A stretch of 64,000 nucleotides of DNA. Source: Methylovulum sp. Lineage in GTDB: Bacteria > Pseudomonadota > Gammaproteobacteria > Methylococcales > Methylomonadaceae. The notes beneath the pieces are model-generated. The model saw only the letters and a program-made list of their open reading frames with translations, had not been told where the DNA came from and did not search any database. Positions 5,903-29,297 of this stretch are shown piece by piece. Location: assembly GCA_028712695.1 (NCBI GenBank), contig JAQTQZ010000008.1:58224-122223 (forward strand). The letters are read 5' to 3'. A program made the translations under genes and the position numbers. Numbering within the stretch: position 1 is the stretch's first letter; the number at the start of each line of letters is the position of its first letter.

Positions 5903-7249
5903 TTGAGTGGACATTGCAACTTCGACACTATTGCCGCCATTGCGACCCCGCCAGGCAATGGCGGGGTCGGTATTGTCCGTGTCTCAGGAAGCTTAGTCCC
6001 TACGCTTATAAGGCAACTGCTCAACAAAGAATTACCCCCCCGCTACGCCAGTTATTCATCATTCATAGATGCTAACGGTGCTGTCATAGACTCAGGCATA
6101 GCCCTCTACTTTCCTGCCCCCTCCTCTTACACCGGCGAAGACATATTGGAACTGCAAGGGCATGGCGGTTCGGTCGTGTTGAATATGTTGTTGCGGCGGG
6201 TATTAGCGCTAGGTGCGCGCCTGGCCAATCCAGGCGAATTTACCGAACGGGCGTTTCTCAACGACAAACTCGACTTAGCTCAAGCGGAAGCGGTTGCCGA
6301 TTTGATTTCCGCCACCACCGAACAATCGGTGCGCTCTGCACAAAAATCAATGCAAGGCGTATTTTCCTCACAAATTAACGAACTCGTTGAAAACCTTACT
6401 GAACTGAGAACTTATGTTGAAGCCGCTATCGATTTTGTCGATGAAGAAATAGATTTTTTAACCGATGGCGTGGTGGAAAAACGCGTTGTCAATTTGTTGC
6501 ACAACCTAGAAAAAATCCAACAAACCGCACACCAAGGTTGCTTATTGCGTGACGGCATGACAGTCGTGCTTGCCGGAAAACCAAACGCTGGAAAATCCAG
6601 TTTGCTAAATGCCCTAGCGGGGCATGAAGCGGCTATCGTCAACGACATCGCCGGGACTACCCGCGACGTACTCAGAGAACGCATCCAGCTTGATGGTATG
6701 CCGCTACATATTATTGACACCGCCGGGCTAAGAGAAAGTGACAATCCGGTCGAACAGGAAGGTATCCGCCGCGCCCGTGCAGAAATCGACAAAGCCGACA
6801 AAATTCTGTTGCTGATTGATGCCAGAGAATCTGAACCGCAAGAATTGTTGGACAGCTTGCCCGCCCATCTTGATGTGACCCGTGTCTATAACAAAATAGA
6901 TTTGTTAGGATTGGCATCGTCAATAATTGAAACAGCACAAGGCACCCAAATCCGCTTATCGGTTAAAACCGGTGAAGGCATGGATTTGTTGGTCCAGCAT
7001 CTCAAACAAAGCGTCGGTTATAACGATGCGGCAGACAATGTTTTTATTGCCCGTACCCGCCATTTGGAAGCGTTAAAAACAGCCCATGAATTTATCGGGT
7101 CTGCATTAAATCAACTGCAAATTAAAGCGGGGGAATTAGTGGCAGAAGATTTACGCCAAGCGCAACTAAGTCTCGCTGAAATTACTGGGGAGTTCACTTC
7201 GGATGATTTACTTGGAAAAATATTTTCCAGTTTCTGCGTAGGGAAGTGA
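5903..7249 (+). CDS. mnmE: tRNA-5-carboxymethylaminomethyl-U34 synthesis GTPase MnmE
   Basis: This GTPase acts with MnmG to modify the wobble uridine of certain tRNAs. The [15 protein letters not shown] opening, G1 loop [11 protein letters not shown]3 DTAG, and the C-terminal FCVGK with its catalytic cysteine are all visible. There is no ATG near the conserved N-terminus. The ORF track starts at TTG 5882, inside yidC; I prefer the TTG at 5903, which gives [13 protein letters not shown], close to the usual family start (448 aa). The full ORF would be 455 aa. It is the last gene of the block. Confidence 0.95.
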
Positions 7250-7289
7250 AGGTGTAAAGCAATAATAAACAACAGGCAAATAAAGGGCA

Positions 7290-7930
7290 GATTCAACGCC
7301 AAAGTGCAACCTTAGTCATCCACGGTTTTTATTGTGATCAGCAAAAAAAGACCTCATGCGGTGTTTTAAAATTGGGTGTTTTTCGAGGACGATGCTTGGG
7401 TCTATGTAGGAGCCGTCATCGCTTATGTCTTCAAAACTGCAAAGTATTGCCTAATCAAGCCATTGGCATTTTCGTTTAAACCGTGTTCCCATGAGCGATA
7501 GGGAGGCGAAATAGGCGCCCGCGCTCAACTCCCGCTTATTTTCTTGTGCCCCGTAAACCTTTTACCGTTCTGTGGTAACCCGTTAAAGTCTTACCCAGAT
7601 AGGGCTACAGCAAGAGGATAGTGGGTTTGGTAACAACTTCAGTGTGTTTGCTTGCCACCTTATCAAGGTAAATTTGGATGACCGGGCCACTAGCCTTACT
7701 AAGGCGTCATAGTTTGCCGGTCTCTGTCGCAGTTTTCCAATCGCCAATACGAGCCGTTTGCGCTAGGGTTTTAGGGCGTCCGTCTATACGATGCGGTTTC
7801 TAATCTGGCCTCGCTTATTTGGTCGGATAGGCTAATAAACGTGTTCATGACTGATATGGGTTTTCAATAGTCCAACGACTTGTTAGAAGAGAAACTACCC
7901 GCAAAACTAAAAGGGAGGTGCCAAGTAACG
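7290..7930 (-). pseudogene. Decayed IS30-family transposase remnant
   Basis: No intact ORF spans this stretch. Reverse-strand translation in shifting frames gives recognisable IS30-type pieces in order: KTHISHEHVY near 7845-7875, then RIGDWKTATETGKL, then KVASKHTEVVTKPTI, PYLGKTLT, ENKRELSAGAYFA, NENANGLIRQYF and KTPHEVFF. Several stops and at least two frame changes separate them, so the gene is long dead. No terminal inverted repeats were identified. It separates the conserved origin block from the metal/arsenic cluster. Limits are approximate. Confidence 0.72.
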
Positions 7931-8170
7931 GATGCGCCTGAGTAAGGCCATACCCTCTATACATGACAAAAAATTGGGAGTGGGTGGGACTTGTGGTTTT
8001 CAATATAATCTGGGCTACGCCATTTTGACCAATATTCCATAACCTTGCCTATGACACGTTAAAAAACCAGCAGTCCCAGTCAGGTTAATCACAGGCTATT
8101 TGAATGGGGTGCAAGCGGTGGGCCGGACGCCAGATTGGAAGCAGGTTGTGATTTGGAACCAAAATATTTT

Positions 8171-8198
8171 TGTAAGGTTTCAAGCCTTACTTACGACT
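8171..8198 (+). promoter_or_regulatory. Putative ECF-type promoter P1 (TGTAAGG-N16-CGACT)
   Basis: TGTAAGG at 8171-8177 and CGACT at 8194-8198 are separated by 16 nt. The same pair recurs with a 15-nt spacer at 11367 and 15279, each upstream of a unit in this cluster. An ECF sigma gene lies within the unit that this copy would drive. It is 36 nt upstream of the PiT start codon. Assignment to that sigma factor is inference. Confidence 0.5.
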
Positions 8199-8234
8199 TA
8201 TGTTTATTTCCAATTTAGACCAAGGAGTGCTTCC

Positions 8235-9055
8235 ATGCTCATGAGCCTTTTATTTATCAGCGTTTGCTTTTTGGCTTACAGCAACGCTGACAATGATAAT
8301 TTCAAAGGTGTTGTGAGTTTATTTGGCAGCGGCACCACCCATTACCGCTGTGCTTTGTCTTGGACGACACTGGCAACATTGGCGGGTTTGATTGCTGCTT
8401 TGTTTTTGGCACAAGCCTTGATAGTCAAGTTTTCCGGTAAAGGCGTAGCGCCAGGCGACTTGGCCCATGCCCTGCCGTTCACGATCTCCGTCACTGGCAG
8501 CACGTTATTGTATACATTACCGATATGGGAATTAATGCCGCAACCACTAAGGCAATGCGCGTTGACCGGTAGGATGGCTGCGCTGAACGGAATACCGAGA
8601 TGATTTTGGGGTTTGACTTTGACCGCCTGCATTTTTGCAGCACCGACGCAGTCTGCTTTGTGCGGGGCCTTAACGATACGCCGAAAATAACGGCGTTATT
8701 ATTGGCACCCGGTGTTACAGCACAAGGGATTATTACAGTCGCCTTGGCAATGTTGCCGGGCGGGTTATTTAGTGCCCGGCGGGTCGCAGAAACCATCAGC
8801 CATAAAATTACCCCCATCACGCATGGCCAAGGACTGTTAGCCAATTTAGTGACGGCATTGCCAGTGATTTTTGCCAGTAAATTGGGGATGCCGGTGTCGG
8901 TCAGCTATGTTTCTGTTGGCTCTTTGTCCGGCATTGGTTTGGTAAGCGGTAAGGCCGATACCGGCGTAATCGGATCCATTGTATTAACCTTATCCTACGC
9001 AGCCATTTGTGCCGCTGCACTTTATTACGTCGCCATTGGCGCCTCTCTTCAATAA
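8235..9055 (+). pseudogene. PiT-family inorganic phosphate transporter, frameshifted and internally deleted
   Basis: The 5' half begins at ATG 8235 behind a good AGGAG site, with FLAYSNADNDNFKGVVSLFGSGTT, the PiT signature region (family usually NGANDNFKG), and ends at a stop at 8603. The 3' half, in another frame (8600-9055), resumes at FVRGLNDTPKITALLL, the second PiT signature, and continues through membrane segments to the C-terminus. About 100 central residues expected in the family are missing. PiT proteins carry phosphate and can admit arsenate. Each half alone is unlikely to work. It is followed 20 nt later by arsM. Confidence 0.75.
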
Positions 9056-9075: not shown

Positions 9076-10119
9076 ATGACTACCAGCATCGAAATCAGCG
9101 AATCAGTCCGCCATTACTACAGCCAAGTCCTCCAATCCAGCGATGATCTAAAAACCAGCGCTTGTTGCAGCATCGACGCGATGCCCGCTCATTTAAAAGT
9201 CTTGTTGGCTGGTGTGCATCCGGAAGTCCTGGAACGTTTTTATGGTTGTGGTTCACCGCTACCGCCAGCCTTGGAAGGAAAGACCGTACTGGATCTGGGT
9301 TGTGGCACGGGCCGCGACTGCTATTTGCTCTCTAAATTGGTCGGCCCGACCGGACAAGTGATCGGCGTGGATATGACGCTGGAACAATTGGAAGTGGCTG
9401 TACGCCACCGGAGCTGGCATGCCGAACGCTTCGGTTACGGCAATGTTGAGTTCATGCACGGCCACATTGAAAATTTGGCTACGGTGGGCATTGCCGATAA
9501 CAGCATCGACGTGGTTGTGTCCAATTGCGTGATCAACCTGTCGCCAGAAAAACCCAAGGTATTGGCGGAAATATTCCGGGTGCTAAAACCGGGCGGGGAA
9601 TTATATTTTTCCGACGTGTTTGCCGACCGCCGGATTCCTGCCGAACTGCGGCAAGACCCTATATTGCTGGGCGAATGCTTGGGCGGTGCCTTGTATTGGG
9701 AAGATTTCCGACGGATATTGCATGAGCTGGGCTGTCCGGATGTGCGTGCCGTCAAACACAATCCAATCAGTCTTGACGACGCGGAAGTGGTTGCCAAAAT
9801 CGGTATGGTCAAGTTCAATTCGGTAACCGTCCGCGCCTTCAAGATGCCGCTGGAAGACCGTTGCGAGGATTATGGACAGGTCGCGGTTTATTTGGGCACC
9901 ATCGACCAACATCCGCATGGTTTCGATTTGGACGACCACCATCATTTTGAAGCAGGCCGACCATTACGGGTATGCGGTAACACAGCCGATATGTTGGCCG
10001 CCAGCCGCTATGGCGAGCACTTCCAAGTTTGGGGTGATAAATCCCGCCATTTTGGTTTGTTCGATTGCGTATCGGGCTCTAGCAGCGAAGCCGCTATGGC
10101 AGATGGGACATGTTGCTGA
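9076..10119 (+). CDS. arsM: ArsM-type arsenite S-adenosylmethionine methyltransferase
   Basis: The 347-residue SAM methyltransferase has the class I motif DLGCGTGRDCYLL near residue 75. The cysteines expected in ArsM are present: an N-terminal SACC pair near 32, Cys in SNCVINLSPEK, and Cys in GECLGGALYWEDF. A CC pair ends the protein. ArsM methylates trivalent arsenic; versions paired with ArsS make dimethylarsenicals for arsenosugar synthesis, and arsS is in this cluster at 13996. The ORF track starts at 9007 inside the upstream gene; I chose ATG 9076, which gives the natural MTTSIEISESVRHYYS start. It overlaps the sigma factor by 10 nt. Confidence 0.85.
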   Translation: MTTSIEISESVRHYYSQVLQSSDDLKTSACCSIDAMPAHLKVLLAGVHPEVLERFYGCGSPLPPALEGKTVLDLGCGTGRDCYLLSKLVGPTGQVIGVDMTLEQLEVAVRHRSWHAERFGYGNVEFMHGHIENLATVGIADNSIDVVVSNCVINLSPEKPKVLAEIFRVLKPGGELYFSDVFADRRIPAELRQDPILLGECLGGALYWEDFRRILHELGCPDVRAVKHNPISLDDAEVVAKIGMVKFNSVTVRAFKMPLEDRCEDYGQVAVYLGTIDQHPHGFDLDDHHHFEAGRPLRVCGNTADMLAASRYGEHFQVWGDKSRHFGLFDCVSGSSSEAAMADGTCC

Positions 10120-10745
10120 GCAAAGGAACAAAATCCACTTCCAATCAGTTGACTGAAGCCCTGCTGGCGGAACACCGCCCCGTGCTGTTCCGTTACGCGC
10201 TGTTGCAATTGCGCGATAACGAACTGGCTGACGATGCTGTGCAGGAAACCTTGCTGGCGGCGTGGCAAACGGCATCAAGTTTCGAAGGCAAGGCGGGACT
10301 GAGAACGTGGCTGGTTGGCATTTTGAAACACAAAATTGCCGACCATTGGCGCCGTACCGTCCGTGAGGTTGTCACCTCGGACTTCGACTCGGTCGATAAT
10401 GAAGAGGGTGAAGCGGGCGAGGGCGACGAAAATGACTTTTTCATGAGTGACGGTCATTGGAATAGCGGCCCTACGTCTTGGAACGACCCGGAAGCCGCGC
10501 TTAACCAACAAGAGTTCTGGGCCATCTATGAAGCCTGCCAAAATAATTTGCCGCCAAAAATGGCCAAGGTGTTCATGCTGCGTGAGCTGGTCGGTTTGGA
10601 GACCGACGAAGTGTGTCGGGAAACCGGCCTCAGCGATGCTAATTACTGGGTGACCATGCACCGCGCCCGGTTACGGTTACGTGAATGTCTGGAAACCCGC
10701 TGGTTCAATCAATCAAAAGCAAAAAAGGAGAAGCGTCATGCGTAA
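10110..10745 (+). CDS. ECF-type RNA polymerase sigma factor
   Basis: The 211-residue protein has sigma-70 region 2 at about residues 15-85 (LFRYALLQLRDNELADDAVQETLLAAWQ) and region 4 at about 145-200 (FMLRELVGLETDEVCRETGLSDANYWV). They are joined by an acidic linker (EEGEAGEGDEND), with no regions 1.1 or 3. It overlaps arsM upstream by 10 nt and the putative anti-sigma downstream by 8 nt. ECF sigma factors commonly accompany hvf/buf metallophore operons. The repeated TGTAAGG/CGACT elements in this cluster are its likely promoters, including the one for its own unit. Confidence 0.92.
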   Translation: MLLSKGTKSTSNQLTEALLAEHRPVLFRYALLQLRDNELADDAVQETLLAAWQTASSFEGKAGLRTWLVGILKHKIADHWRRTVREVVTSDFDSVDNEEGEAGEGDENDFFMSDGHWNSGPTSWNDPEAALNQQEFWAIYEACQNNLPPKMAKVFMLRELVGLETDEVCRETGLSDANYWVTMHRARLRLRECLETRWFNQSKAKKEKRHA

Positions 10746-10938
10746 TTGCCGCGAAATTACTGCTCTGGTGTCCCAGGGCATGGACAAGAAACTCAGCTTT
10801 GGTGAACGGCTGGCGATTGGTTTTCATGTGATGATGTGTTCGCACTGCCGAAACTTTCAGAGCCAGTCCCAGTTCATGCGCAAGGCGGCCCGGCGCTATA
10901 CTGGACAATTACAAAATCGCCCGGATAAAAAACCGTAA
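10738..10938 (+). CDS. Small zinc-finger (zf-HC2-like) anti-sigma factor
   Basis: The 66-residue protein has C4, then a His and CSHC spaced as in a zinc-binding anti-sigma domain (FHVMMCSHCRNFQ, residues 29-41). It has no membrane segment, so it would act as a soluble anti-sigma factor. The ORF track begins at 10681 inside the sigma gene; the real start is ATG 10738 after the AAGGAG site, overlapping the sigma stop by 8 nt. The overlap implies matched production of the pair. Metal or oxidant sensing through the zinc site is inference. Confidence 0.82.
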   Translation: MRNCREITALVSQGMDKKLSFGERLAIGFHVMMCSHCRNFQSQSQFMRKAARRYTGQLQNRPDKKP

Positions 10939-10950
10939 CGCAAAAAGCCA

Positions 10951-11175
10951 ATGATGAGCAAAATCCTATTGGAATCGACACTAACTTGCCCGGAATGCGG
11001 TCATCGTAAAACTGAGACGATGCCCATTAATGCGTGCCAGTGGTATTACGAATGCCAGGGCTGTCATCATTTGTTGAAACCGAAACCCGGTGATTGTTGC
11101 GTCTTTTGCTCCTATGGCAACTTTGCCTGCCCGCCCATTCAATTGCATGGCAAACAATCTGGTTGTTGCGGGTAA
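10951..11175 (+). CDS. GDCCVxC-domain small cysteine-rich protein
   Basis: The 74-residue protein has an N-terminal CPECGH knuckle, a CQGCHH pair and the family hallmark KPGDCCVFCSYG followed by CPPIQ. It is a known family of small proteins in which one hallmark Cys is selenocysteine in some species; here all positions are Cys codons and no in-frame TGA is seen. Function is unknown; zinc or thiophilic metal binding is likely from the 11 cysteines. It lies 12 nt after the anti-sigma gene and ends that unit. Confidence 0.8.
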   Translation: MMSKILLESTLTCPECGHRKTETMPINACQWYYECQGCHHLLKPKPGDCCVFCSYGNFACPPIQLHGKQSGCCG

Positions 11176-11456: not shown

Positions 11457-11786
11457 ATGAACAAAAAAAACTTATCCCTGACTTTAGGTACTGCATTGGT
11501 TTCAACATTGATGAGCGCGGCACCTGCCATCCAAGCCGGTGAAAACCCATTTGCAATGTCAAGCGTCAATACTGCGCAACACGTAGCGGCGGCTGACGAA
11601 AAAATGAACGAAGGCGGATGCAGCGGCAGCAAACTGAAAGAAGGCAAATGCGGCGAAGGCAAGTGCGGTGCCAACAAAATGAAAGACATGAAAGGTGTGG
11701 AAGGCGGTTGCAGCGGAAAAATGCCAGAAGGTGGCTGTAGCGGTAAGATGCCAGAAGGCGGTTGCAGCGGCAAAGTAGCCGAATAA
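11457..11786 (+). CDS. hvfA: HvfA-type precursor of an MNIO-modified, cysteine-rich RiPP metallophore
   Basis: The 109-residue precursor starts at ATG 11457 behind a TTTGGAG site. A Sec signal peptide (MNKKNLSLTLGTALVST...AIQA) is followed by a short linker and a core with six cysteines: four EGGCSG units and two adjacent EGKCG units, ending in tandem KMPEGGCSG repeats. EGKCG-type cysteines in HvfA peptides are converted by the HvfB/HvfC enzymes to oxazolone/thioamide groups that bind copper. The next three genes are hvfB, hvfC and hvfX. The mix of EGKCG and EGGCSG is noteworthy. A large antisense ORF is only the repeat shadow. Confidence 0.88.
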   Translation: MNKKNLSLTLGTALVSTLMSAAPAIQAGENPFAMSSVNTAQHVAAADEKMNEGGCSGSKLKEGKCGEGKCGANKMKDMKGVEGGCSGKMPEGGCSGKMPEGGCSGKVAE

Positions 11787-11802: not shown

Positions 11803-12675
11803 ATGACTACAACCCATCCTTTCGGCCTGATCGGTGCCGGTTTAGGTTTGCGGCGCGCGTTGTTGCCCGCGTTGCAAACAAGCGTACCGGACAGTATCAA
11901 CTTTTTTGAAGTGTCACCGGAAAATTGGGTCGGTGTCGGCGGCCATCTAGGCAAGCTGTTCCGTAGTCTGACCGAGCGCCATCGTTTCGTGGCGCACGGT
12001 TTGGCGCTGTCGTTGGGCGGCCCTGCGCCGCTGGACACCGCATTTTTACGCGAACTAAAACAGTTTCTCGATTATCACGATTTTGCTTTGTACACCGAGC
12101 ACTTGAGTTTTTGCAGCGATGAAGGGCATTTTTATGACTTATACCCGATTCCATTTACTGAGCAGGCGGTCAAGCATGTCGCCGGTCGCCTCCGTCGGGC
12201 ACAAGATATTCTGGAACGTCCCATTGCTTTGGAGAACGCATCTTACTATGTCCAGCCGCCGCAGGCGGAAATGGACGAGCTGAATTTCATCAACGCCGTA
12301 TTGAGCGAAGCCGATTGCCACCTGCATCTGGATGTCAACAACATCTACGTCAACAGTGTCAATCACGGTTACGACCCGGTTAACTTTTTACGCGGGTTGC
12401 CCGGCGAGCGTATCGTGTACGGGCATGTCGCCGGCCACGACTTGGAGCCATCAGGGTTGATCATCGACACCCACGGCCAGAATACCATAGCGCCGGTGTG
12501 GGACTTGCTGGCTGAAGCCTACCGCTGCTTTGGGCTGTTTCCGACATTAGTGGAACGCGACAGCAACATCCCGCCACTCGCCGAATTACTGGTTGAAGTG
12601 GAACAGATCCACACCCTACAGCAGCATCATGTGGATTGCCTTGGCACACAAAACATCAGCGAGGCGGCGGCATGA
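11803..12675 (+). CDS. hvfB: HvfB-type MNIO iron enzyme, RiPP maturase (DUF692)
   Basis: The 290-residue TIM-barrel multinuclear non-heme iron oxidase modifies core cysteines of its cognate precursor. Family metal ligands appear in order: VAHGLALSLGG near residue 65, TEHLSF near 98, ALENASYY near 142, LDVNNIYVNSVNHG near 176, YGHVAGH near 206, DTHG near 222 and VERDSNIPP near 246. It begins 16 nt after hvfA and its stop overlaps hvfC by 4 nt (ATGA). Substrate assignment to HvfA rests on adjacency. Confidence 0.93.
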   Translation: MTTTHPFGLIGAGLGLRRALLPALQTSVPDSINFFEVSPENWVGVGGHLGKLFRSLTERHRFVAHGLALSLGGPAPLDTAFLRELKQFLDYHDFALYTEHLSFCSDEGHFYDLYPIPFTEQAVKHVAGRLRRAQDILERPIALENASYYVQPPQAEMDELNFINAVLSEADCHLHLDVNNIYVNSVNHGYDPVNFLRGLPGERIVYGHVAGHDLEPSGLIIDTHGQNTIAPVWDLLAEAYRCFGLFPTLVERDSNIPPLAELLVEVEQIHTLQQHHVDCLGTQNISEAAA

Positions 12676-13430
12676 ACAACCCACCAGCATTCCAACAAAT
12701 GCAACGGCAATTTTTGACTTATTTGCGTCAGCCGCAAACGGACAGTGCACCAGCAGGCTTCGCGCCCGAACGGTTAGCTGTTTATGCCGATCTGCTCTAC
12801 AACAAGTTTGACGAAAGCCTGGGCGCATGTTTTCCTGTCATACACAGCATTCTGGATAAGGATGGTTGGCGATCATTGTTATTGGATTTTATCGCCGGAC
12901 ATCGGTGCCTATCACCGTACTACCGGGAGATACCTGACGAATTTGTGCAGTATTTGCATCAGGAACGTAAGTGTCCCGATGACCTGCCGTTTCTGTCCGA
13001 ACTGGCGCATTTCGAATGGGTGGAATTGCAGCTATCAATCGCTGAAGCCGGGCCGGTGGCGTCCGAGCCGCTGGCCGAAACGCAATTACTATCCGGCGTA
13101 CCGGTGTTTGTGCCGGTCATACAATTGTTGCATTACCATTGGCCGGTACAAGACATTAGCGCCGCTTTCCAGCCCAAGGAAGCACCCGCGACTACGACCC
13201 ATATCCTCGGTTTCCGTGATAGCGACGACAATGTACGTTTTATCGCCCTAAATCAGGCCACGGCACAACTGATCATGTTGTTAAACAACGGCCTGACCGG
13301 ACAACAGGCCTTGCAGTCGATGAAAGGTGAACTAACCGATACGCAATTTTTTGAATTAACCCTATTCGGTCAAGGCATTTTGGCCGACTTGCATCAGCAT
13401 GGTGCGATTGTCAATGTCCTCCCCGCATAA
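12672..13430 (+). CDS. hvfC: HvfC-type RiPP maturation partner (DUF2063)
   Basis: The 252-residue protein has the N-terminal DNA-binding-named DUF2063 domain (FQQMQRQFLTYLRQP, ERLAVYADLLYNKFDESLGACFPVI) and a C-terminal recognition-element-like domain (about residues 170-245). In MNIO systems this partner presents the leader peptide to the maturase. The track start at 12636 lies inside hvfB; ATG 12672 gives the ATGA overlap and a natural N-terminus. Confidence 0.9.
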   Translation: MNNPPAFQQMQRQFLTYLRQPQTDSAPAGFAPERLAVYADLLYNKFDESLGACFPVIHSILDKDGWRSLLLDFIAGHRCLSPYYREIPDEFVQYLHQERKCPDDLPFLSELAHFEWVELQLSIAEAGPVASEPLAETQLLSGVPVFVPVIQLLHYHWPVQDISAAFQPKEAPATTTHILGFRDSDDNVRFIALNQATAQLIMLLNNGLTGQQALQSMKGELTDTQFFELTLFGQGILADLHQHGAIVNVLPA

Positions 13431-13447: not shown

Positions 13448-13993
13448 ATGAATGACTCCGCCACATCCCATCACGATGATTGCTCCGCTTGCATGCTTTC
13501 ATCGCGCATCCAACAGATAGGCGATATGCCCGGCAAACTTTCCCGCTGGTTCGACGACAACGCCGCCAGCTTAGCTCCGGTTTTTATACGCTTGCTGCTA
13601 GCCTATGAATTTGGCGAGGCGGGTCTGGAAAAACTCCATGGCGACAACTTTTTTGCCGATTTGACTTTCCCGTTCCCCTTCAATTTACTGCCCGCCGATT
13701 TCAATTGGAACTTATCCATGGGATTGGAAATTATTGCCCCTATCGCATTGGTTTTGGGCGTGATGACCCGTTTTTTCAGCGTGGCATTGATGGTGTTGAC
13801 TGTAGTGGCGATTGCCGCTGTGCATTGGCCTGCCGAATGGCACAGCCTGGGCGAATTGTGGAAAGGCTATGCCATCACCAATGAAGGCTACGGTAATTTC
13901 AAATTGCCGCTGATGTATTTGTTAATGTTGACAACATTGATGTTCAGCGGCGCGGGGCGATTAAGCGTTGACGGCTGGTTATCCAAGAGTTAA
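13448..13993 (+). CDS. hvfX: HvfX/DoxX-family membrane protein of the RiPP operon
   Basis: The 181-residue DoxX-family protein has about four membrane segments (about residues 39-52, 81-102, 105-120 and 150-170). The N-terminal cytoplasmic segment carries DDCSACML. DoxX members of hvf/buf operons are thought to help maturation or copper handling at the inner membrane. It lies 17 nt after hvfC and 2 nt before arsS. Confidence 0.83.
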   Translation: MNDSATSHHDDCSACMLSSRIQQIGDMPGKLSRWFDDNAASLAPVFIRLLLAYEFGEAGLEKLHGDNFFADLTFPFPFNLLPADFNWNLSMGLEIIAPIALVLGVMTRFFSVALMVLTVVAIAAVHWPAEWHSLGELWKGYAITNEGYGNFKLPLMYLLMLTTLMFSGAGRLSVDGWLSKS

Positions 13994-13995
13994 GC

Positions 13996-14976
13996 ATGCA
14001 CGACACTAAACCCCTACTAGCCCACAGCGATTTTCCGGCCATTTTCCGCAAGCCGCTGGAAATCCTGCAAATCAACCTCGGTTATTTATGTAATCTCAGT
14101 TGTGTGCATTGCCACGTTAACGCCGGCCCGAAACGCACCGAATCGATGAGCCGGGAAACCATTGCGCACGTTTTGGCACTGGCTGATGCCGCCAATATCC
14201 ACACGCTGGATCTGACTGGCGGCGCACCGGAAATGCACCCTGATTTCCGTTATCTGGTGCGGACAGCACGCGACCGGGGTATCGACGTCATTGACCGTTG
14301 CAATTTGACCATTCTCGAAGCCCCAGGCTATGAGGGGCTAGGCGAGTTTCTAGCGGCGCAACAGGTAGAAATTGTCGCGTCATTGCCTTGTTATTTAGAA
14401 GAAAATGTCGATAAACAGCGCGGCAAGGGCGTATTCAAGGATAGCCTAAGCGCTTTGCAACGTCTCAACCGGTTAGGCTACGGTCAGCCAAACAGCGGAC
14501 TGAAGCTTAATCTGGTTTATAACCCGCAAGGTGCGGTGTTGCCGCCCGACCAGCACAATCTGGAACAGGCGTATAAACAACACCTCGAACAACACTACGG
14601 CATCGTTTTCAACCGCCTATTTGCCGTCGCCAACATGCCGATCCAGCGGTTCGGCAGCACGTTGGTCAGCCAGGGCTGCTTTGATACTTATCTGAACTTA
14701 CTGAAAGACAGCTTTCGCGCCGAGAACCTCGACAACTTGATGTGCCTGGACACCCTCAGCATCGACTGGCAAGGCTATGTCTACGATTGCGATTTCAACC
14801 AGATGCTGGCACTGCCGCTGAGAGCGGTTGCCAAACCCCAAGTGCATGTCGGTGACTTGAATTTGGATTTGTTAAACAACGCACCGGTCGCCACTGCCGC
14901 CCATTGCTACGGCTGCACCGCCGGACAAGGCAGCAGTTGTGGCGGTGCACTGGATGCCACCCGCGTCGATTGTTGA
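13996..14976 (+). CDS. arsS: Arsenosugar biosynthesis radical SAM protein ArsS
   Basis: The 326-residue radical SAM enzyme has the cluster motif CNLSCVHC near residue 34 with the family continuation HVNAGPKRTE, the GGAPEMHPDFRYLV segment and a C-terminal Cys-rich DUF3641 region ending GCTAGQGSSCGG. ArsS is proposed to transfer the 5'-deoxyadenosyl group to dimethylated arsenic, giving dimethylarsinoyl-deoxyadenosine, the arsenosugar precursor. It starts 2 nt after hvfX, so it appears to be transcribed with the RiPP operon, while its partner arsM is 4 kb upstream. Confidence 0.93.
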   Translation: MHDTKPLLAHSDFPAIFRKPLEILQINLGYLCNLSCVHCHVNAGPKRTESMSRETIAHVLALADAANIHTLDLTGGAPEMHPDFRYLVRTARDRGIDVIDRCNLTILEAPGYEGLGEFLAAQQVEIVASLPCYLEENVDKQRGKGVFKDSLSALQRLNRLGYGQPNSGLKLNLVYNPQGAVLPPDQHNLEQAYKQHLEQHYGIVFNRLFAVANMPIQRFGSTLVSQGCFDTYLNLLKDSFRAENLDNLMCLDTLSIDWQGYVYDCDFNQMLALPLRAVAKPQVHVGDLNLDLLNNAPVATAAHCYGCTAGQGSSCGGALDATRVDC

Positions 14977-19072: not shown

Positions 19073-19468
19073 CCTTATAAATTCCTAGCGTATTAAATCT
19101 GGTGTATAAAGTTCCCGGTTGACAGTAAAAAAACAGTGGACTGGGTCACATTTTTAAAAGAAATAAGCCTCAATACAGTTATGTCCTCCCTTTGATGGAC
19201 GCAACCGTCCCCTGATTATGTGTGATAACTCCCAGCGATTGAATCCTATGCCTGCGTAATGGAAGCGAGGGGATGCTTTGGCTGTGGAATTTGCGCGTAA
19301 TTTAGGGCGTTAGGTTCAATGGTAAAACGCAATCTTTGTCATTAGTGGTTTCTTGCGATGATCCAGTAAACCCTCTGCGAATCGGTGTCAACTTGATGAA
19401 AATTTTAGCCAGAATCAGCTCAACCGATTATTGAAACGTGTTTTTAAGATAATTTGAGGAAGGAAAAG

Positions 19469-21190
19469 ATGATAAAAACAAGAAGGGGTATTTTAAAAGC
19501 GGGGGTGGCGGCATTGACCGTCCCTTCCGTATTTGGTGGCGTCATGCTGCCCCGCTCTGCCCAAGCGCAGCTTTGCCGCGCCACGGGCATCAGGAGTCCG
19601 GGCACGGAGCCAGCCAGTCCGCCGGTCACGCCTTATACAGAGCCATTGTATGTGCCTGATGCAATGCAGCCGATCAATCCTTCAGCTTTGGCGACTCCGC
19701 CAGATCCGAACCGGCATCAACGTTTTGATGAATTTCAGCCCCAAAAATTTTACGAACAACGGATTACTGAAGGCGTCTGGAATTATCATTCGCAATTATC
19801 GGCATTAACACCTGCACAAGGCGGCGCCCCCGCAGGCACAGGCTCCTTAGCCTGGCTGTATGACGGTAGCACGCCCGGAAGGACACTTGTGGCACGTTAT
19901 GGCGAGCCGGTTTTTGTCCGTCGGCATAACTTATTGCCCACCTCAGACCAGGTTGAAATGCCAATTGGTTATCCTGCCATTAGCACGCATTTGCATAACG
20001 CGCACACGGCCTCGGAAAGCGATGGTTATCCGATGGACTTTATCGTACCCGGCCAGTTCTGGGACCACCATTATGCAATGATGTATGCGCGTAACGACCC
20101 TAACGAAGCGTTGGGTAGCCTTTGGTATCACGATCACATGATCGACTTCACGGCGACCAACGTTTATGCCGGTTTGTCGGGGATGGCGATTTTTTACGAT
20201 CATCTTGATACGGGGAATGAAAAGGACAGTCTTGGAACAGCCTTGCGCTTGCCGGGCAATTTGCGTTTTGGCGGCACGCCCGGCAATGCCAATGGCTATG
20301 ACATTTCATTGATCCTGCATGACGTGCGCTTTAGCCAAAACGGCAACCCTTCTTACAATGTTTTTGATACTGACGGCCATTTAGGTGATTTGATCACTGT
20401 CAACCGCAAGGTTATGCCTTATCTGAATGTCGAACGGCGGAAATACCGCTTCCGCATCTATGACGGCGGCCCTTCGCGTTTTTATGAATTGGGGCTGAGC
20501 GACAACAGCAATTTCTTTATCATTTCAAACGACGGCAACTTGCTGGAAGAGCCGGTCGATGCGACCAGCATCGTTGTAGGCCCGGCCAATAGGCAAGATG
20601 TCATCATCGACTTTTCCCGTTATAGCCCAGGCGCTACCGTCGAACTGTTGAATATCATGGAGCAGCTTAACGGCCAAGGCCCTACAGGCCGTAGGCTGGA
20701 AGGCCCGGACCGCATGAAGGTGATGCAGTTCCGGATTATCGACAGCAATGTTGATGACACCAGCCGTATACCCGATTTTCTGCGCAAATTACCAAAAATA
20801 AATTTGCGGGAAGTGGTTGCCGAACGCGAATGGGTATTCGATCACGATATGGGCTTATGGACATTAAACGGCAGCTTCATGGACCCAACCGTCATTTCGG
20901 CCGCACCTAAACAAGGGACGGCAGAAATTTGGAATTTCAGAAATGCCGGCAGTTCATGGGCGCACCCTTGCCATGTCCATTTTGAAGAATTCCAAGTGCT
21001 GGAATGGAACGGTAGAAAACCAACCGGCGTATTGCGTTCCAGAAAAGATGTCGCGACTTTGGGCCCTAATGACCATGTCAGAGCGTTCTATCGCTTCGAT
21101 GATTTTGTCGGACGCTACGTCATCCATTGCCATAACAACGTGCATGAAGACAATGCCATGATGGCGCGCTGGGATGTGACTCCGGGCTAA
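19469..21190 (+). CDS. Tat-exported multicopper oxidase
   Basis: The 573-residue oxidase has an N-terminal Tat-like signal (KTRRGILKAG, cleavage near PRSAQA). All four copper-ligand motifs are present: HLHNAH near residue 172, WYHDHM near 220, HPCHVHFEEF near 495, and HCHNNVHEDNAMM near the C-terminus, which supplies the type 1 Cys, His and axial Met. Such enzymes couple oxidation of Cu(I), Mn(II), bilirubin or phenols to oxygen reduction. ATG 19469 follows a strong purine-rich ribosome site; the track's TTG at 19454 is inside that site. It heads the cluster with SCO-like, unknown, QC and Cus genes. Confidence 0.92.
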   Translation: MIKTRRGILKAGVAALTVPSVFGGVMLPRSAQAQLCRATGIRSPGTEPASPPVTPYTEPLYVPDAMQPINPSALATPPDPNRHQRFDEFQPQKFYEQRITEGVWNYHSQLSALTPAQGGAPAGTGSLAWLYDGSTPGRTLVARYGEPVFVRRHNLLPTSDQVEMPIGYPAISTHLHNAHTASESDGYPMDFIVPGQFWDHHYAMMYARNDPNEALGSLWYHDHMIDFTATNVYAGLSGMAIFYDHLDTGNEKDSLGTALRLPGNLRFGGTPGNANGYDISLILHDVRFSQNGNPSYNVFDTDGHLGDLITVNRKVMPYLNVERRKYRFRIYDGGPSRFYELGLSDNSNFFIISNDGNLLEEPVDATSIVVGPANRQDVIIDFSRYSPGATVELLNIMEQLNGQGPTGRRLEGPDRMKVMQFRIIDSNVDDTSRIPDFLRKLPKINLREVVAEREWVFDHDMGLWTLNGSFMDPTVISAAPKQGTAEIWNFRNAGSSWAHPCHVHFEEFQVLEWNGRKPTGVLRSRKDVATLGPNDHVRAFYRFDDFVGRYVIHCHNNVHEDNAMMARWDVTPG

Positions 21191-21244
21191 TACAGGCAAA
21201 AGCAACGACATAAACCATTATTTTGGATTCAAGGAGTCTATTTT

Positions 21245-21871
21245 ATGAAAACTAGAAGAGCATTTATCGCTTCTGCCGCTATGGTATTGCCGGCAGCGGC
21301 TTTTGCGGCAACAGGGTCAAAGGCCCTGGAGGAAAGCCCTGTATTTAAAGCGTGCCCCCGCGCATCCGGTGGGCCGACCGCACACCGCTTCCCTAAAATT
21401 ATCGTCCAAGACCAGCACAAGCAAAAAGCTTGGTTTTATGAAGAGTTGGTCGACAACAAATTGGTCTTGATCAATTTCACTTCCGTACAGGGCGAACAGC
21501 ATTACCCTATCCTGAACAATCTAGTGAAAGTCCAGGCGATGTTGGAAGACCGGTTGGGCAAAGACGTGCATATGTATACAATCACTACCGCGCCGCACAA
21601 GGACACCCCGGACAGTTTAAAAAAACTGGCCGATGCGCACGGTGCCAAATGGCAATTCCTGACCGGACAACCCGATGATATTCGTGAGCTTCTGAGTGTT
21701 TTCAGCGTGCATGGCCTGATTAATGGCAATTCATGGGTGGGCAATGAAAAAACGGGGCGTTGGTTATCCAAAGCCGTTCGCCAGCATCCGCTTTATATTG
21801 CGGAAGCTGTCGCACGGCTTAGTACGGGTAAGCACTACAAGCCGTTTTTGGTCGATATGCATAGCGTGTAA
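21245..21871 (+). CDS. SCO1/SenC-like thioredoxin-fold protein lacking the copper-binding CxxxC
   Basis: The 208-residue exported protein has a signal MKTRRAFIASAAMVLPAAAFA (partly Tat-like). The fold is recognisable by NKLVLINFTS and by DVHMYTITTAPHKDTPDSLKKLADAHGAKWQFLTG, which align with SCO proteins. Where SCO has CxxxCP, this protein has VQGEQHYP, so both copper-binding cysteines are absent. The usual copper transfer chemistry is therefore unlikely. It sits between the multicopper oxidase (54 nt) and the 641-residue unknown (12 nt). Confidence 0.78.
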   Translation: MKTRRAFIASAAMVLPAAAFAATGSKALEESPVFKACPRASGGPTAHRFPKIIVQDQHKQKAWFYEELVDNKLVLINFTSVQGEQHYPILNNLVKVQAMLEDRLGKDVHMYTITTAPHKDTPDSLKKLADAHGAKWQFLTGQPDDIRELLSVFSVHGLINGNSWVGNEKTGRWLSKAVRQHPLYIAEAVARLSTGKHYKPFLVDMHSV

Positions 21872-21883
21872 GAGGAATCAGCA

Positions 21884-23809
21884 ATGAAACTAACATTAAA
21901 CAAACAATTCGCTGGCGCCTCAGGATTGGTTCTGGGCTTAAGTCTTGCATCGGTCGCCTTGGCTGATCATCCGGGCACCCAGCCCCGTCCAGGGCCGTCG
22001 ATACAAACCTTATCAGCAGACGGTATGACCACGACAGTGGTTACGCCTGAAGGCCATTTTCCGCCGCAGGATATTGTGGCAAATCCGCCTGGCAGTAACT
22101 TCCTGATGACGGTCTACGAAAATGCCCGTGATTTTAACGGTGACGAAATGCCAAATACGTTGCCGTCGACACCTGATGGCCGGTACAACCTGCATGACGG
22201 CCCCGTATTGACTGAAACAATCAACCAAACTAATCCGTCGGAAGACTTGGATAAAGTGATTGATAACCTTGAATACGTTGTGAAATATCATAAGCCTGTC
22301 AATCTTCGTATGCTTAATACCGGTATCGATATTTTGGAAGGCAACCACATTCGGAACCGGGCTTACAGCGGATTTCCAATGTTGCATTACACTGGCCCGA
22401 ACAAGATCAAAAAGGTAATCCCTATTTGTCAGGACGCTCCGTGCCATAATCCTTTAGCGCCCGGCGATGTTGTGATTGGCGGCAATGTTGATGTCGACAT
22501 GGTTTACTGGGATCAACACATCGAAGCCGATACGGCTTTCGTTGATCCATCGGCAGTCCAGGAAGTGCCATGGACGGTCACCTATCATGTCAATATCCTG
22601 CATGGTGGTATGGAAGATTTTTCGCCGATGGTGATGCTGTTTGACCAGAATGCGGACCATACCCGTGGGCCGTTCCATGTCTCGATGGACCAAAGTTATT
22701 TCCCTATGCTTAAGGAGGGTACGCGCTATACCGTCAAAATCAAGCAGACGAAAGGCAAGTATTTCAACTTGACCTACACGTGGGGCTGGCGTATACATCC
22801 ACCACGCGTGCAGGTGGTTGAAAATGCCCTTAAAACCACGCCTGATGGGACTACCTTGCCGCAACATGAAATCAATGTGTTCGGCATAAACCCAAGAGGC
22901 AGCGAAGCCAATAAACTGGCGGCCATTGCGATGATTGGTGACCTTTCTCCAGCCAAACGGATGTGGAATTTGCTACGGGAGATCAGAAATTCGAATATGG
23001 GCTCGAAAAAACTGGCCCTGCAAGTTGCAGAGCTTAGGGCGGCTTATTTGGATTGGTCTGACCGCACTAAATTGCCTGCCGGTGTCACTGCCGATCCGAA
23101 TGCGAATATCACCTTGTTCTACGTCAACAATACCATTTATGGAAGCAGTCATGGGCTTCAAGGTGAGGGTAGCGGACAAGGGCCGGCCAGTTACAAAGGG
23201 ATCTCCCCCAATGGCGCCAGAGACTGGCATATTCGTCCGTATAACTACAAAGTGACTTTATACAATGGGGATCATTTTCCTCATGGCTACATGAATGTGG
23301 ATTTCGGCGGTTCACGGGGTTGGGAAAACCAATTCCAGTTCACTGATCCGACCACTGCATTGGCACCACAGCCGCATACTGGGCCGTCTGTAATCGAAGG
23401 TAGCGAAACCACCATTACGGACAATTTGCTTTTGGACACTACGCCTAATCCGGCTAAGCAATCACTGGCTATCGATCCGATAACGGGTGAGCACATTGTG
23501 ACCAACGACAAGATTCTCCCGATGAACACCGGTGGAACCGAAGAGTTTTTGCAACAATCACCCCGTAATGCGGATGTCAATGCCGATCCACAACTGGGTT
23601 CTGGTTGTTTCTTCACTTTCGGCCGCAACCACGCTTGGCCAAATGCGGGCGGCCCATGGGGCAGTATCATGGTGCCGCCAGTCGCACTAGACGGTACGCC
23701 TGGCATGCACAAAGTCGATATTACTTATAATTTCGAGCCTAGCATGAGGTTGCGTGTTTATCAGTTTGATCCATTGCACCATGAACAAGCGATTTTTTCA
23801 CTGCACTAA
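21884..23809 (+). CDS. Large secreted protein of unknown function in the multicopper oxidase operon
   Basis: The 641-residue protein has a clear Sec signal peptide (ends ASVALA, residues 1-27) and no further membrane segment. I do not recognise the family. It is rich in His, Trp, Asp and Gly, with motifs such as NILHGGMEDFSPMV, FNLTYTWGWRIHPPRVQVVENA and GDHFPHGYMNVDFGGS, and contains a possible disulfide pair in CQDAPC. Repeated His-containing loops make metal or cofactor binding plausible. It starts 12 nt after the SCO-like gene, so it probably works with the oxidase in the periplasm or at the cell surface. Confidence 0.7.
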   Translation: MKLTLNKQFAGASGLVLGLSLASVALADHPGTQPRPGPSIQTLSADGMTTTVVTPEGHFPPQDIVANPPGSNFLMTVYENARDFNGDEMPNTLPSTPDGRYNLHDGPVLTETINQTNPSEDLDKVIDNLEYVVKYHKPVNLRMLNTGIDILEGNHIRNRAYSGFPMLHYTGPNKIKKVIPICQDAPCHNPLAPGDVVIGGNVDVDMVYWDQHIEADTAFVDPSAVQEVPWTVTYHVNILHGGMEDFSPMVMLFDQNADHTRGPFHVSMDQSYFPMLKEGTRYTVKIKQTKGKYFNLTYTWGWRIHPPRVQVVENALKTTPDGTTLPQHEINVFGINPRGSEANKLAAIAMIGDLSPAKRMWNLLREIRNSNMGSKKLALQVAELRAAYLDWSDRTKLPAGVTADPNANITLFYVNNTIYGSSHGLQGEGSGQGPASYKGISPNGARDWHIRPYNYKVTLYNGDHFPHGYMNVDFGGSRGWENQFQFTDPTTALAPQPHTGPSVIEGSETTITDNLLLDTTPNPAKQSLAIDPITGEHIVTNDKILPMNTGGTEEFLQQSPRNADVNADPQLGSGCFFTFGRNHAWPNAGGPWGSIMVPPVALDGTPGMHKVDITYNFEPSMRLRVYQFDPLHHEQAIFSLH

Positions 23810-23935
23810 GGCATGACGGTCGTTTAAGGAAGCGCGGAATAAATCCATCGGGATTTTGTGAAGCAGAGACCCGGGTCAAACGCAGTTTGTCCCGGGTTAT
23901 CTTTAAAAGGGTTAAGGCCGTCCATCTTGCAGGTG

Positions 23936-24847
23936 ATGGACAGCATTGGGAGTTTTTGTCTGTTTAGCAATAAAATTTGGTGTTGCTTGGTGCTGTTGTG
24001 CGGATTTTTTGAGAAAGCCACGGCGGCTACCGAAACTGCCGCGGCATATGCCGCATGCCCGCAAGCTAGCGGGATGCAGCCAGAAGTAAAGGGCGAAAGG
24101 GCTTTAGCAAGCAATGACAAACTGGGCGGGCCGGAACTTAAGCCTATCCCACAATATTACGGTTATCGGGTTATTGCCCGTTATCCGCATGATGTTGGGG
24201 CTTTTACCGAAGGATTGACGTTTTACAACGGCCGCTTATTTGAAAGCACCGGACAATGGGGGCAATCGAGTCTTCGGGAACTTGATCTACAACAAGGCAG
24301 GATAAAGCAGCAGGTAAAACTATCACGTTACGATTTTGGTGAAGGGTTGACCGTGCTCAACAATTATTTGGTCCAGCTGACCTGGAAATCTGGCGAAGCC
24401 TTTATCTATCAGCCGGACACCCTAAAGCAAGTTAGCCAGTTCGGTTATGAAGGCGAAGGTTGGGGTGTTGCAGCGGGCAATGGCCAATTGGTCGTCAGTA
24501 ACGGTTCTGCACAGCTACAGTTTTTTGACACAGAAAATTTCAACGTAGTCCGCAGGCTGACCGTAACAGACCGTAAGCATGAAATAGCAGGATTAAATGA
24601 GCTTGAATTTGCCGAAGGCGCTATTTTTGCTAACGTTTGGCCCAGCAATTGTATTGCCGAAATCGACCCTGCGACGGGTCAGGTCTTAGGCTGGTTGGAT
24701 TTGGCTGGTTTGGCACACAGCCAAAAAGGGTTATCTGAAATGTCAGTCCTAAATGGCATGGCTTATAATGCTGAAACAAAACATTGGCTGGTTACTGGGA
24801 AGAATTGGCCTTATTTCTATGAAATAACCTTACAGCGGACGTACTGA
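23936..24847 (+). CDS. Glutaminyl-peptide cyclotransferase (plant-type beta-propeller QC)
   Basis: The protein (303 aa from ATG 23936) is a secreted QC of the papaya/bacterial type, which turns N-terminal Gln into pyroglutamate. The PHDVGAFTEGLTFYNGRLFESTGQWGQSSLRELDL segment, AGLNELEFAEGAIFANVWPS and VTGKNWPYFYEI are family hallmarks. A hydrophobic signal (FCLFSNKIWCCLVLLCGFF) follows the chosen start; the track begins at an upstream TTG, 23858. Its place between the secreted unknown and the Cus genes suggests it matures an exported protein of this cluster. Confidence 0.87.
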   Translation: MDSIGSFCLFSNKIWCCLVLLCGFFEKATAATETAAAYAACPQASGMQPEVKGERALASNDKLGGPELKPIPQYYGYRVIARYPHDVGAFTEGLTFYNGRLFESTGQWGQSSLRELDLQQGRIKQQVKLSRYDFGEGLTVLNNYLVQLTWKSGEAFIYQPDTLKQVSQFGYEGEGWGVAAGNGQLVVSNGSAQLQFFDTENFNVVRRLTVTDRKHEIAGLNELEFAEGAIFANVWPSNCIAEIDPATGQVLGWLDLAGLAHSQKGLSEMSVLNGMAYNAETKHWLVTGKNWPYFYEITLQRTY

Positions 24848-24852
24848 CATAT

Positions 24853-26127
24853 ATGACTTTAAATAAGAAAATCATCATTGCTGCCGTGGCAATCGGCTTG
24901 ATCGGCTTGATCTTAGGATACCCTACCGAGCAGGGCGAACCCATGCCCTTAAGTGTTGCTCGGCAACCTACCGCGCCGTTACCGGCCAGTCCAGTGCCGA
25001 CAGAAGACTATTACGTGTGTCCGATGCACCCGGAAATTATTGCCCACGAACCTGGTAACTGCCCAATTTGTGCCATGGAATTGGTAAAAAAACAAGGGGG
25101 TGGTGCTGTGGTGCATAATCATGGGGATTACCCCACCGTGCAGTTGTCTTCTACAGTGGTCCACAACCTTGGTGTGCGCACCGCGAAAGTGACGCTTGGC
25201 GAGATGCGGCAACACATTGAAACGCTGGGCAAAATTACCCGCATCGATACTGCAGCCAAACATATCCTTACGCCGCCAATTGATGGCCGGCTGGTTTATA
25301 TCGCCGACAAGTACGAGGGCGACGAGATCCAGCAAGGCGAACTGCTTTTTAGCGTCGCTTCAGAGGCACTGTTCGAACAGGAACGCCGCTATCAAGAAGC
25401 GGCTTTGGCAGGGGATCATGCGACCACCAACACGATGTTGGCGGAATTAAGCCGACAAGGCATTGACCCCGAACAGATAGCCAAACTTGAAGCGGGCGGA
25501 AAACCGGAATTTCCGGCCGAAGTGCATGCCCAGGAAGAGGCGTATGTTTTTGCCCGGCGCGGTGCAGTGGGCGAGACGGTCAACACCGGCTTTACGGTGT
25601 TTAATTTAGGCGGCAATAACCGGATCGTGGAAGTGACTGCGGAAATTTTCGAGCGGCAATGGGGACAGGTTGAAGAAGACCAGGCCGCGCGTATGTCGGT
25701 GCGCGGACTACCGGGGACAATTTTTGAAGGCCGCGTCATTAGGGTTGAACCCCCAGTCGGCTACACCACCCGTTCCTTGGAAGTCCGGCTTAAATTTAAG
25801 ACTGATCATCCAGAGTTGTCGCAAAGCATGTTTGCACATATCAATATTCTCGGCACGGCCCGCAAGGACATATTGATGGTGCCTAGCGATTCGGTGATCA
25901 GGACGAGTACGGGCGAACATGTGGTGGTGTTGCGTGAAGATGGGTTATATCAACCGGTGTCCGTCGTTGCAGGCGAAGATGCGGCCGGTATGACCGAGAT
26001 CCGCTCCGGCCTTGGCGAGGGGACGACTGTTGTGGTTTCAGGCCAGTTTCTGATTGATTCGGAAAGTAATCTGCAGGCGGAGTTCCGGCGTATGTCCGCT
26101 ACACCACCTCATGCACAGGATCATTGA
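24853..26127 (+). CDS. cusB: CusB-type RND efflux periplasmic adaptor with heavy-metal-binding domain
   Basis: The 424-residue adaptor has an N-terminal membrane anchor (residues 6-24) and then the heavy-metal-binding motif YYVCPMHPEI...GNCPICAMEL (about residues 53-78), seen in CusB/CzcB-like proteins for Cu or Ag. The hairpin, lipoyl and beta-barrel adaptor domains follow. It begins 5 nt after the QC stop and is followed by its pump gene. No outer-membrane TolC/CusC partner is encoded nearby. Confidence 0.9.
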   Translation: MTLNKKIIIAAVAIGLIGLILGYPTEQGEPMPLSVARQPTAPLPASPVPTEDYYVCPMHPEIIAHEPGNCPICAMELVKKQGGGAVVHNHGDYPTVQLSSTVVHNLGVRTAKVTLGEMRQHIETLGKITRIDTAAKHILTPPIDGRLVYIADKYEGDEIQQGELLFSVASEALFEQERRYQEAALAGDHATTNTMLAELSRQGIDPEQIAKLEAGGKPEFPAEVHAQEEAYVFARRGAVGETVNTGFTVFNLGGNNRIVEVTAEIFERQWGQVEEDQAARMSVRGLPGTIFEGRVIRVEPPVGYTTRSLEVRLKFKTDHPELSQSMFAHINILGTARKDILMVPSDSVIRTSTGEHVVVLREDGLYQPVSVVAGEDAAGMTEIRSGLGEGTTVVVSGQFLIDSESNLQAEFRRMSATPPHAQDH

Positions 26128-26132
26128 ATAAT

Positions 26133-29100: not shown

Positions 29101-29297
29101 CGGTTATTGTCATTGGCTTGCTGCCGATATTATTGGGATCAAGTGCAGGTTCCGAAGCCATGCAACGCATTGCCGCACCGATGATAGGCGGCATGGTCAC
29201 CGCGCCATTGGTATCTATGCTATTGATCCCATTGATGTATTTTGTTTGGTGTAAAAAGGGTTTGCGATTAACAAAAAATAAGGGTTTAGGGGAATGA
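26133..29297 (+). CDS. cusA: CusA/CzcA-type heavy-metal RND efflux pump
   Basis: The 1054-residue inner-membrane proton antiporter has the full HME-RND layout. The first helix (LLVLFASSILCLAGVF) is followed by the porter loop with DLSDVQV, a cluster of helices around residues 340-540, a second porter loop and final helices around 870-1040. The ending PLVSMLLIPLMYF is typical. Copper or silver is the likely substrate given the adaptor and neighbours. I prefer ATG 26133 (MITALIRWSIQ) to the overlapping TTG 26124. Confidence 0.93.
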   Translation: MITALIRWSIQHRLLVLFASSILCLAGVFSVRTMPLDALPDLSDVQVVIRTNYAGQAPQLIEDQITYPLSTAMLSVPGATAVRGYSFFGDSYVYVIFSDATDLYWARSRVLEALNQISGQLPAGTQPKLGPDATGLGWVYEYALVDRSKTHDLAELKSLQDWFLKYELQTVPGVSEVATVGGMVKQYQVEIDPDKLRGYYLTLANVRQAIAESNADQSSSALEMAEAEYPVRIKGYIKSIDDVGLISVPTLKRRLSISSVLLGDIARSIHLGPAERRGVADLDGEGEVVGGIIVMRSGENALATIEAVQAKLQTLKQSLPEGVELVETYNRAALIKRAVNTLSQRLLEELAVVILVCALFLYNFRSSMVILVSLPIGILTAFSIMRLQGINANIMSLGGVAIAIGAMVDAAVVMIENVHKHIERLGEPADAGNGTAPDSRKRLQAIQDAASEVGAPLFVSLLVITLSFLPILALEGQEAKLFAPLAYTKTYAMAAAAGLSITLVPALMAYFIRGTIHKETDNPLNRGLMAVYRPVLEAVLHHPRLSIAVVVLVLVSASWPLSQLGSEFMPEMDEGDLLYMPTTLPAISIGKARELLQQTDRLIKTVPEVERVFGKVGRAETATDPAPLMMIETVVKLKPKAQWREGMTLETLKKELDGLLQIPSLRNAWLMPVRARIDMQSTGINTPVGIKISGPKIETIQQLGQQVEAVLHAVAGTKTVYSERAFGARYIDVDIDRYAIAHYGLSIAEVEEAASIAIGGKNVTYTVEGRERYPVNLRYPRDLRDSITKLKELPIIATEDTFIQLQDIAEIQLADGSPVIKSENARLNGWVYITTDGRDVGSYVEAAKAALDKQVQLPAGYTLSWAGHYVDMERVRQRMLYIIPVTVLVIAILLYLAFQNSMETLMVMFAIPLALVGGIWFLWLLGFHLSVASAVGFIALAGVATEFGVVMVIYLREAVRSDAPLTEAALRAAVIKGAAQRVRPKAMTVAVIVIGLLPILLGSSAGSEAMQRIAAPMIGGMVTAPLVSMLLIPLMYFVWCKKGLRLTKNKGLGE

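Follow-up and report, generated by a model that had tools for sequence, protein, structure and literature searches.

Two cysteine motif classes, EGKCG and EGGCSG, in an HvfA-type precursor from a methanotroph hvf locus

What becomes of the cysteines in a peptide precursor that sets the known modified motif EGKCG among copies of a second motif, EGGCSG? It is established that FonBC, HvfBC and NgoBC form 5-thiooxazole on EGKCG repeats (PMC12668002), and copper binding is reported for the captophorin class to which such products belong. Here, we report an analysis of an hvf locus of Methylovulum sp. (contig JAQTQZ010000008.1), whose precursor combines both motifs; the window is the whole stretch of DNA analysed, 64,000 nucleotides long.

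The hvf locus and its precursor

The genes run in the order hvfA-B-C-X, all on the + strand. The open reading frame hvfA (11457..11786) encodes an HvfA-like RiPP precursor of 109 aa and is followed after 16 nt by hvfB (11803..12675; MNIO [DUF692] RiPP maturase, 290 aa; NF003818, 401 bits, cut-off 360; PF05114), which overlaps by 4 nt with hvfC (12672..13430; DUF2063/RRE partner protein; NF050145, 248 bits, cut-off 142; PF09836 and PF22106), and then by hvfX (13448..13993; DoxX-family membrane protein; NF050144, 133 bits, cut-off 80; PF07681). HvfB, HvfC and HvfX all score above the curated NCBIfam cut-offs. HvfA matched NF050188 (E, 1.3e-6; 28.9 bits) far below the 95-bit cut-off and is homologous to, yet outside, that curated equivalog group; a Pfam scan of HvfA gave zero matches, with DUF2282 (the Buf1 bufferin domain) not found.

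From N to C terminus, HvfA comprises MNKKNLSLTLGTALVSTLMSAAPAIQA, a GENPFAM leader (NPF) and a core with six cysteines; its signal peptide was judged by eye to be of the Sec type, ending at about residue 27 (..PAIQA). Short precursors of this type are described as unstructured. The core (all on the + strand) opens with an EGGCSG unit that is conserved in the clade (unit 1, 11610..11627, Cys55), continues with the adjoining pair EGKCGEGKCG (11640..11669; unit 2, 11640-11654, Cys65; unit 3, 11655-11669, Cys70) and closes with three EGGCSG units (11700..11771; unit 4, 11700-11717, Cys85; unit 5, 11727-11744, Cys94; unit 6, 11754-11771, Cys103) at nine-residue spacing (VEGGCSG-KMPEGGCSG-KMPEGGCSG). 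These coordinates bear out the two adjacent EGKCG units among four EGGCSG units described in a sequence-only reading, and the family matches of HvfB, HvfC and HvfX above their cut-offs and of HvfA below its own agree with its view of the product as an HvfA-type precursor holding motifs of two classes. The span given there (11600-11786) covers the core of a gene that begins at 11457, and of the three near-tandem KMPEGGCSG units all share the spacing but only two the KMP prefix.

Tandem Repeats Finder returned the EGKCG pair as a 15-nt repeat (score, 51) and units 4 to 6 as a 27-nt array (2.8 copies; 79% match; score, 108). Between the opening two copies of this array there are five synonymous changes and none in the amino acids, so the repeat is maintained at the protein level. 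A chance origin was ruled out by the Tandem Repeats Finder scores and a genome pattern search, and a sequencing or annotation artefact by the same architecture in about 30 genomes.

Spread and selection of the two motif classes

The nearest relatives come from Methylobacter, Methylomonas, Methylovulum and allied methanotrophs. Precursors were sought upstream of HvfB at 148 loci. At least two Cys-Ser units were present at 34 loci (some genomes counted twice), every one with an HvfB at least 64% identical to that of the window. The clade set used below is drawn from a single clade of HvfB, found in Methylobacter, Methylomonas and allied methanotrophs, and numbers 34 unique precursors, that of the window among them; the laboratory strain Methylomonas LW13 carries one of the clade loci (L037). 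A perfect EGKCGEGKCG pair stands beside EGGCSG-type units in 30 of the 34, and the motif mix is thus not peculiar to this product, as had been supposed; the remaining four are three Methylomonas precursors with EGKCG-type cores and one (L009) with the imperfect pair EGKCSDGKCG. Among the HvfA sampled at lower-identity HvfB loci across the class, EGKCG far outnumbers every other motif, and no EGGCS repeat was seen. A common occurrence of EGGCSG among homologues would, by the sequence-only reading itself, count against that reading: the motif is common within one methanotroph clade, not across the wider family.

A tandem EGGCSG DNA pattern, strict enough to undercount since it demands GAA as the first Glu codon and perfect motifs (G016, with EGGCSA/EAGCSG, was missed), matched 8 of the 201 genomes searched in the order, each of them from the window's family, and 0 of 368 other genomes of the class, the window's gene being the sole match among 369; read backwards, it gave zero matches in the 369. 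A plasmid search returned distant relatives only (<60% identity). The EGGCSG-type precursor is characteristic of one methanotroph lineage. As EGGCSG is the rule among these related methane oxidisers, the peptide is of a known kind, in a variant form proper to the lineage; the precursor is a genuine captophorin/oxazolin variant whose EGGCSG form was not found described in the captophorin literature searched.

The EGKCGEGKCG pair is invariant in protein and varies in codons in all 30 clade precursors that hold it. Among the 115 units outside the pair in these precursors, Cys is kept in 115, Glu in 113 and Ser after Cys in 107, with positions 2 and 6 drifting among G, A, S and D. Copies compared within clade peptides, in pairs that are not independent, differ by 265 synonymous and 54 non-synonymous codon changes for Cys-Ser units and by 85 and 0 for EGKCG units. 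Both unit types are accordingly under purifying selection, and the conserved Cys, Glu and Ser with mostly synonymous copy differences mark EGGCSG as a maintained second motif, not decay. The classes also differ in arrangement: counted over all loci, near-duplicates included, all 122 GCS cysteines stand alone, never in an adjacent pair, and of 478 KCG cysteines 366 belong to such a pair. Lys before the Cys goes with Gly after it, and a preceding Gly with a following Ser; five precursors (L009, L023, L070, L074 and L137) have Cys-Ser within an adjacent pair.

Fate of the EGGCSG cysteines

Oxazolin, the product invoked by the sequence-only reading, was first described as an oxazolone-thioamide and has since been reassigned as 5-thiooxazole by two groups (PMC12668002; PMC13419390), so the chemistry of that reading has to be brought up to date. 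By analogy, the HvfB-HvfC complex would dock on the HvfA leader and oxidise cysteines to 5-thiooxazole in the cytoplasm, after which HvfA would be exported. The EGKCGEGKCG pair would be the conserved modified site and almost surely carries thiooxazole; the four isolated EGGCSG units would also be converted by an HvfB lineage able to accept Gly on the N-terminal and Ser on the C-terminal side of the Cys, a step tentatively judged the likelier outcome. Going by characterised relatives, the product would act in the periplasm as a copper binder that buffers metal present in excess. Taken whole, a captophorin (oxazolin/fontiphorin-type) RiPP locus of lineage-specific form, with EGGCSG cysteines converted too and a copper-binding product, is the reading that we hold somewhat more probable than not. 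It is favoured by the hvfA-B-C-X order with three products above their cut-offs, by copper-type genes downstream, by close HvfB that serve EGKCG-type cores, by the conservation of the Cys and of the EGGCSG form, and by Cys-Ser within pairs elsewhere. The copper-type genes (19454-29297, about 5 to 15 kb downstream of hvf) encode a multicopper oxidase, an SCO1-like protein, a CusB-like adaptor bearing a heavy-metal-binding domain and an RND pump. Against it stand the HvfA score far below the NCBIfam cut-off, the GCS units that are always single, consistent with a separate role, and two properties of FonBC: a two-repeat peptide is modified and a one-repeat FonA peptide is not, and position 5, after the Cys, where a small residue is required, accepted only Ala among the variants tried, the text being silent on Ser (PMC12668002). 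On the favourable side, FonBC tolerates Ala, Arg and Thr before the Cys as well as Ala after it (PMC12668002), so small flanking residues are allowed.

The nearest competitor, which we consider plausible but the less probable, is that HvfBC converts the pair only; with the four EGGCSG cysteines remaining thiols or forming disulphides, the metal-binding peptide would combine thiooxazole and thiol groups. The pair invariant in 30 of 34 clade precursors beside flanking units that drift at positions 2, 5 and 6, GCS units that are never adjacent, the unmodified one-repeat FonA peptide and the Buf1 bufferins, which carry modified central cysteines and a disulphide between the first and the last (PMC12452194), are all consistent with such a product. 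However, many HvfA-type precursors carry isolated EGKCG or EGACG units beside their own HvfB (their modification is putative), all six cysteines are modified in the three pairs of H. influenzae HvfA (PMC13419390), and the three Methylomonas precursors have EGKCG and EASCG replacing EGGCSG, as if the classes were interchangeable. Given the published FonBC tolerance and the Buf1 precedent, full modification is ranked somewhat above modification of the pair only. The proposal of the sequence-only reading that EGGCSG cysteines may be modified differently or left as thiols is, on the sequences compared, neither shown nor excluded: the isolated units, the one-repeat failure of FonBC and its demand for a small residue after the Cys (PMC12668002) speak for it, and the conserved Cys and motif, the close enzymes acting on EGKCG-type cores and Cys-Ser in pairs elsewhere against. 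Mass spectrometry for an EGGCSG precursor was not found in the literature searched.

The maturase HvfB is a homologue of 3BWW, to which its DVNNIYVN and DTHG segments, the MNIO metal-ligand motifs, were aligned; the ligand roles are taken from PMC13419390. In FonB, selectivity residues are Arg15, Arg16 and Phe250, the last adjoining the catalytic Asp249 and facing the residues that flank the substrate Cys (PMC12668002). Of the two marks of the Lys-Cys class of MNIO (FonB-like), the Arg pair and the Phe, the HvfB of the window shows the former (GLGLRR) and carries Ser254 at the Phe250 position, which was matched through a conserved ERD-F-N motif, the FonB sequence itself not being aligned. Counting near-duplicate loci, Phe occupies this position in 102 of the 108 HvfB aligned from outside the clade and in 16 of 35 from inside it, where Ser occupies another 16. 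In a tree made by a quick method, Ser typifies the window's subclade (14 rows; Asn in one); the sister subclade keeps Phe with the same EGGCSG precursors, except for Ser in L058, and the EGGCSG pattern is present across both. Within the Ser subclade, the three Methylomonas loci (L034, L039 and L040) place EGKCG/EASCG cores behind a near-identical leader, and since their HvfB are 81 to 87% identical to that of the window, a single lineage of enzymes handles both types of core. A change from Phe to Ser at 254 as the simple cause of EGGCSG was ruled out by the tree and the core types, because most sister enzymes keep Phe with the same precursors and EGKCG-type cores go with three enzymes that have Ser or Asn. 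Ser254 may help the turnover of Cys-Ser, but it is neither necessary for EGGCSG nor tied to it. One peptide with two natural cysteine contexts, together with related HvfB carrying Phe, Ser or Asn at the site that steers FonB selectivity and relatives with EGKCG cores, offers a ready-made experiment on the substrate tolerance of thiooxazole-forming MNIOs, an open question of the field.

Neighbouring genes and comparison with known systems

Domain scans placed four + strand genes upstream of hvfA: an arsM-like arsenite methyltransferase (9076..10119; best NCBIfam match NF008823, 203 bits, below the cut-off of 263), an ECF sigma factor that is the probable regulator (10110..10745; TIGR02943, PF04542/PF08281), a zinc-finger (zf-HC2) anti-sigma factor (10738..10938; NF052368, PF13490) and a GDCCVxC-domain protein (10951..11175; NF041374, 104.6 bits, cut-off 40). 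Downstream of hvfX are arsS, an arsenosugar-biosynthesis radical SAM protein (13996..14976, + strand; TIGR04167, 456 bits, cut-off 300), and a VTT/pyridine-nucleotide oxidoreductase fusion. Upstream of arsM, a PHO4-type phosphate transporter is split into two overlapping frames (8100-8603 and 8600-9055), perhaps a broken gene or an assembly frameshift.

The peptide might serve arsenic handling, instead of or besides copper, together with ArsM and ArsS, which we think unlikely. Of 23 clade loci with complete flanks, 9 have ArsM and/or ArsS within 4 kb of hvfB, as do several partly flanked ones (L033, L034 and L042 among the clade loci with arsM/arsS beside hvf; both genes in the window); by comparison, these genes lie near none of 20 hvf paralogues from the same family (flanks of about 6 kb, one contig shorter; the second hvf locus of the window's genome is among them) and 0 of 15 named non-clade control loci. 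However, neither gene is within 4 kb at the other 14 fully flanked loci, arsS is on another contig than hvf in two genomes (G016 and G034), copper genes are also close by, and no paper relevantly linking MNIO enzymes to arsenic, or arsenosugars to DUF692, was found in the literature searched. By the numbers the linkage is real, though only partial, and it is weakened because the loci share ancestry; if functional, it would widen the presumed roles of these peptides. In another genome of the order (G040), about 2 kb separate arsS from the gene of a more distant MNIO with 41% identity (C11:3966-4739 and 6543-7448), possibly an independent case.

More doubtful still is a division of labour in which only the pair is modified, the thiooxazoles serving copper and the EGGCSG thiols a second soft element, possibly arsenite, although such sites would fit the linked arsM and arsS. 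That EGGCSG units are degenerating EGKCG copies with no role in their own right is very improbable: they are more variable than the pair (EAGCSG, EGGCSA, EGGCSD, ESSCGA), but the selection pattern disfavours decay, with Cys in 115 and Ser in 107 of 115 units and mostly synonymous copy differences, and the motif persists in both HvfB subclades.

The preferred reading, a captophorin-type product with both motif classes converted, was set against known systems. The same genome holds a second hvf locus (G000:C79:53296-54090; L002 and L149) that shares an HvfB 57% identical to the first, HvfC and a Cys-rich precursor; that precursor has more than 12 Cys in EGACG, EGKCG and EMACG contexts, its HvfB has Phe at the selectivity site, and arsM and arsS are absent within about 6 kb. 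Precursors of this type are widespread in the window's family. In several Methylobacter, an AhpD-domain peroxidase-like gene lies between hvfA and hvfB (L045:3594-3986, L054:3594-3986 and L050:1331-1720).

With the Buf_EGKCG/oxazolin family, the locus shares a signal-peptide precursor with EGKCG and the MNIO/DUF2063/DoxX core genes (PMC12452194). Fontiphorin, gonophorin and bulbicupramide likewise have an MNIO with a DUF2063 partner and repeated five-residue Cys motifs (PMC12668002, PMC12538549), but their cores are built of EGKCG, whereas that of the window mixes EGKCG and EGGCSG. Oxazolin HvfABCX of Haemophilus influenzae shares the A-B-C-X order, the signal peptide, six core cysteines, the EGKCG pair and the HvfB, HvfC and HvfX family membership; it differs in carrying three EGKCGEGKCG pairs where the window's HvfA has one pair and four isolated EGGCSG units, and in the Phe beside the catalytic Asp that Ser replaces in the window's HvfB.
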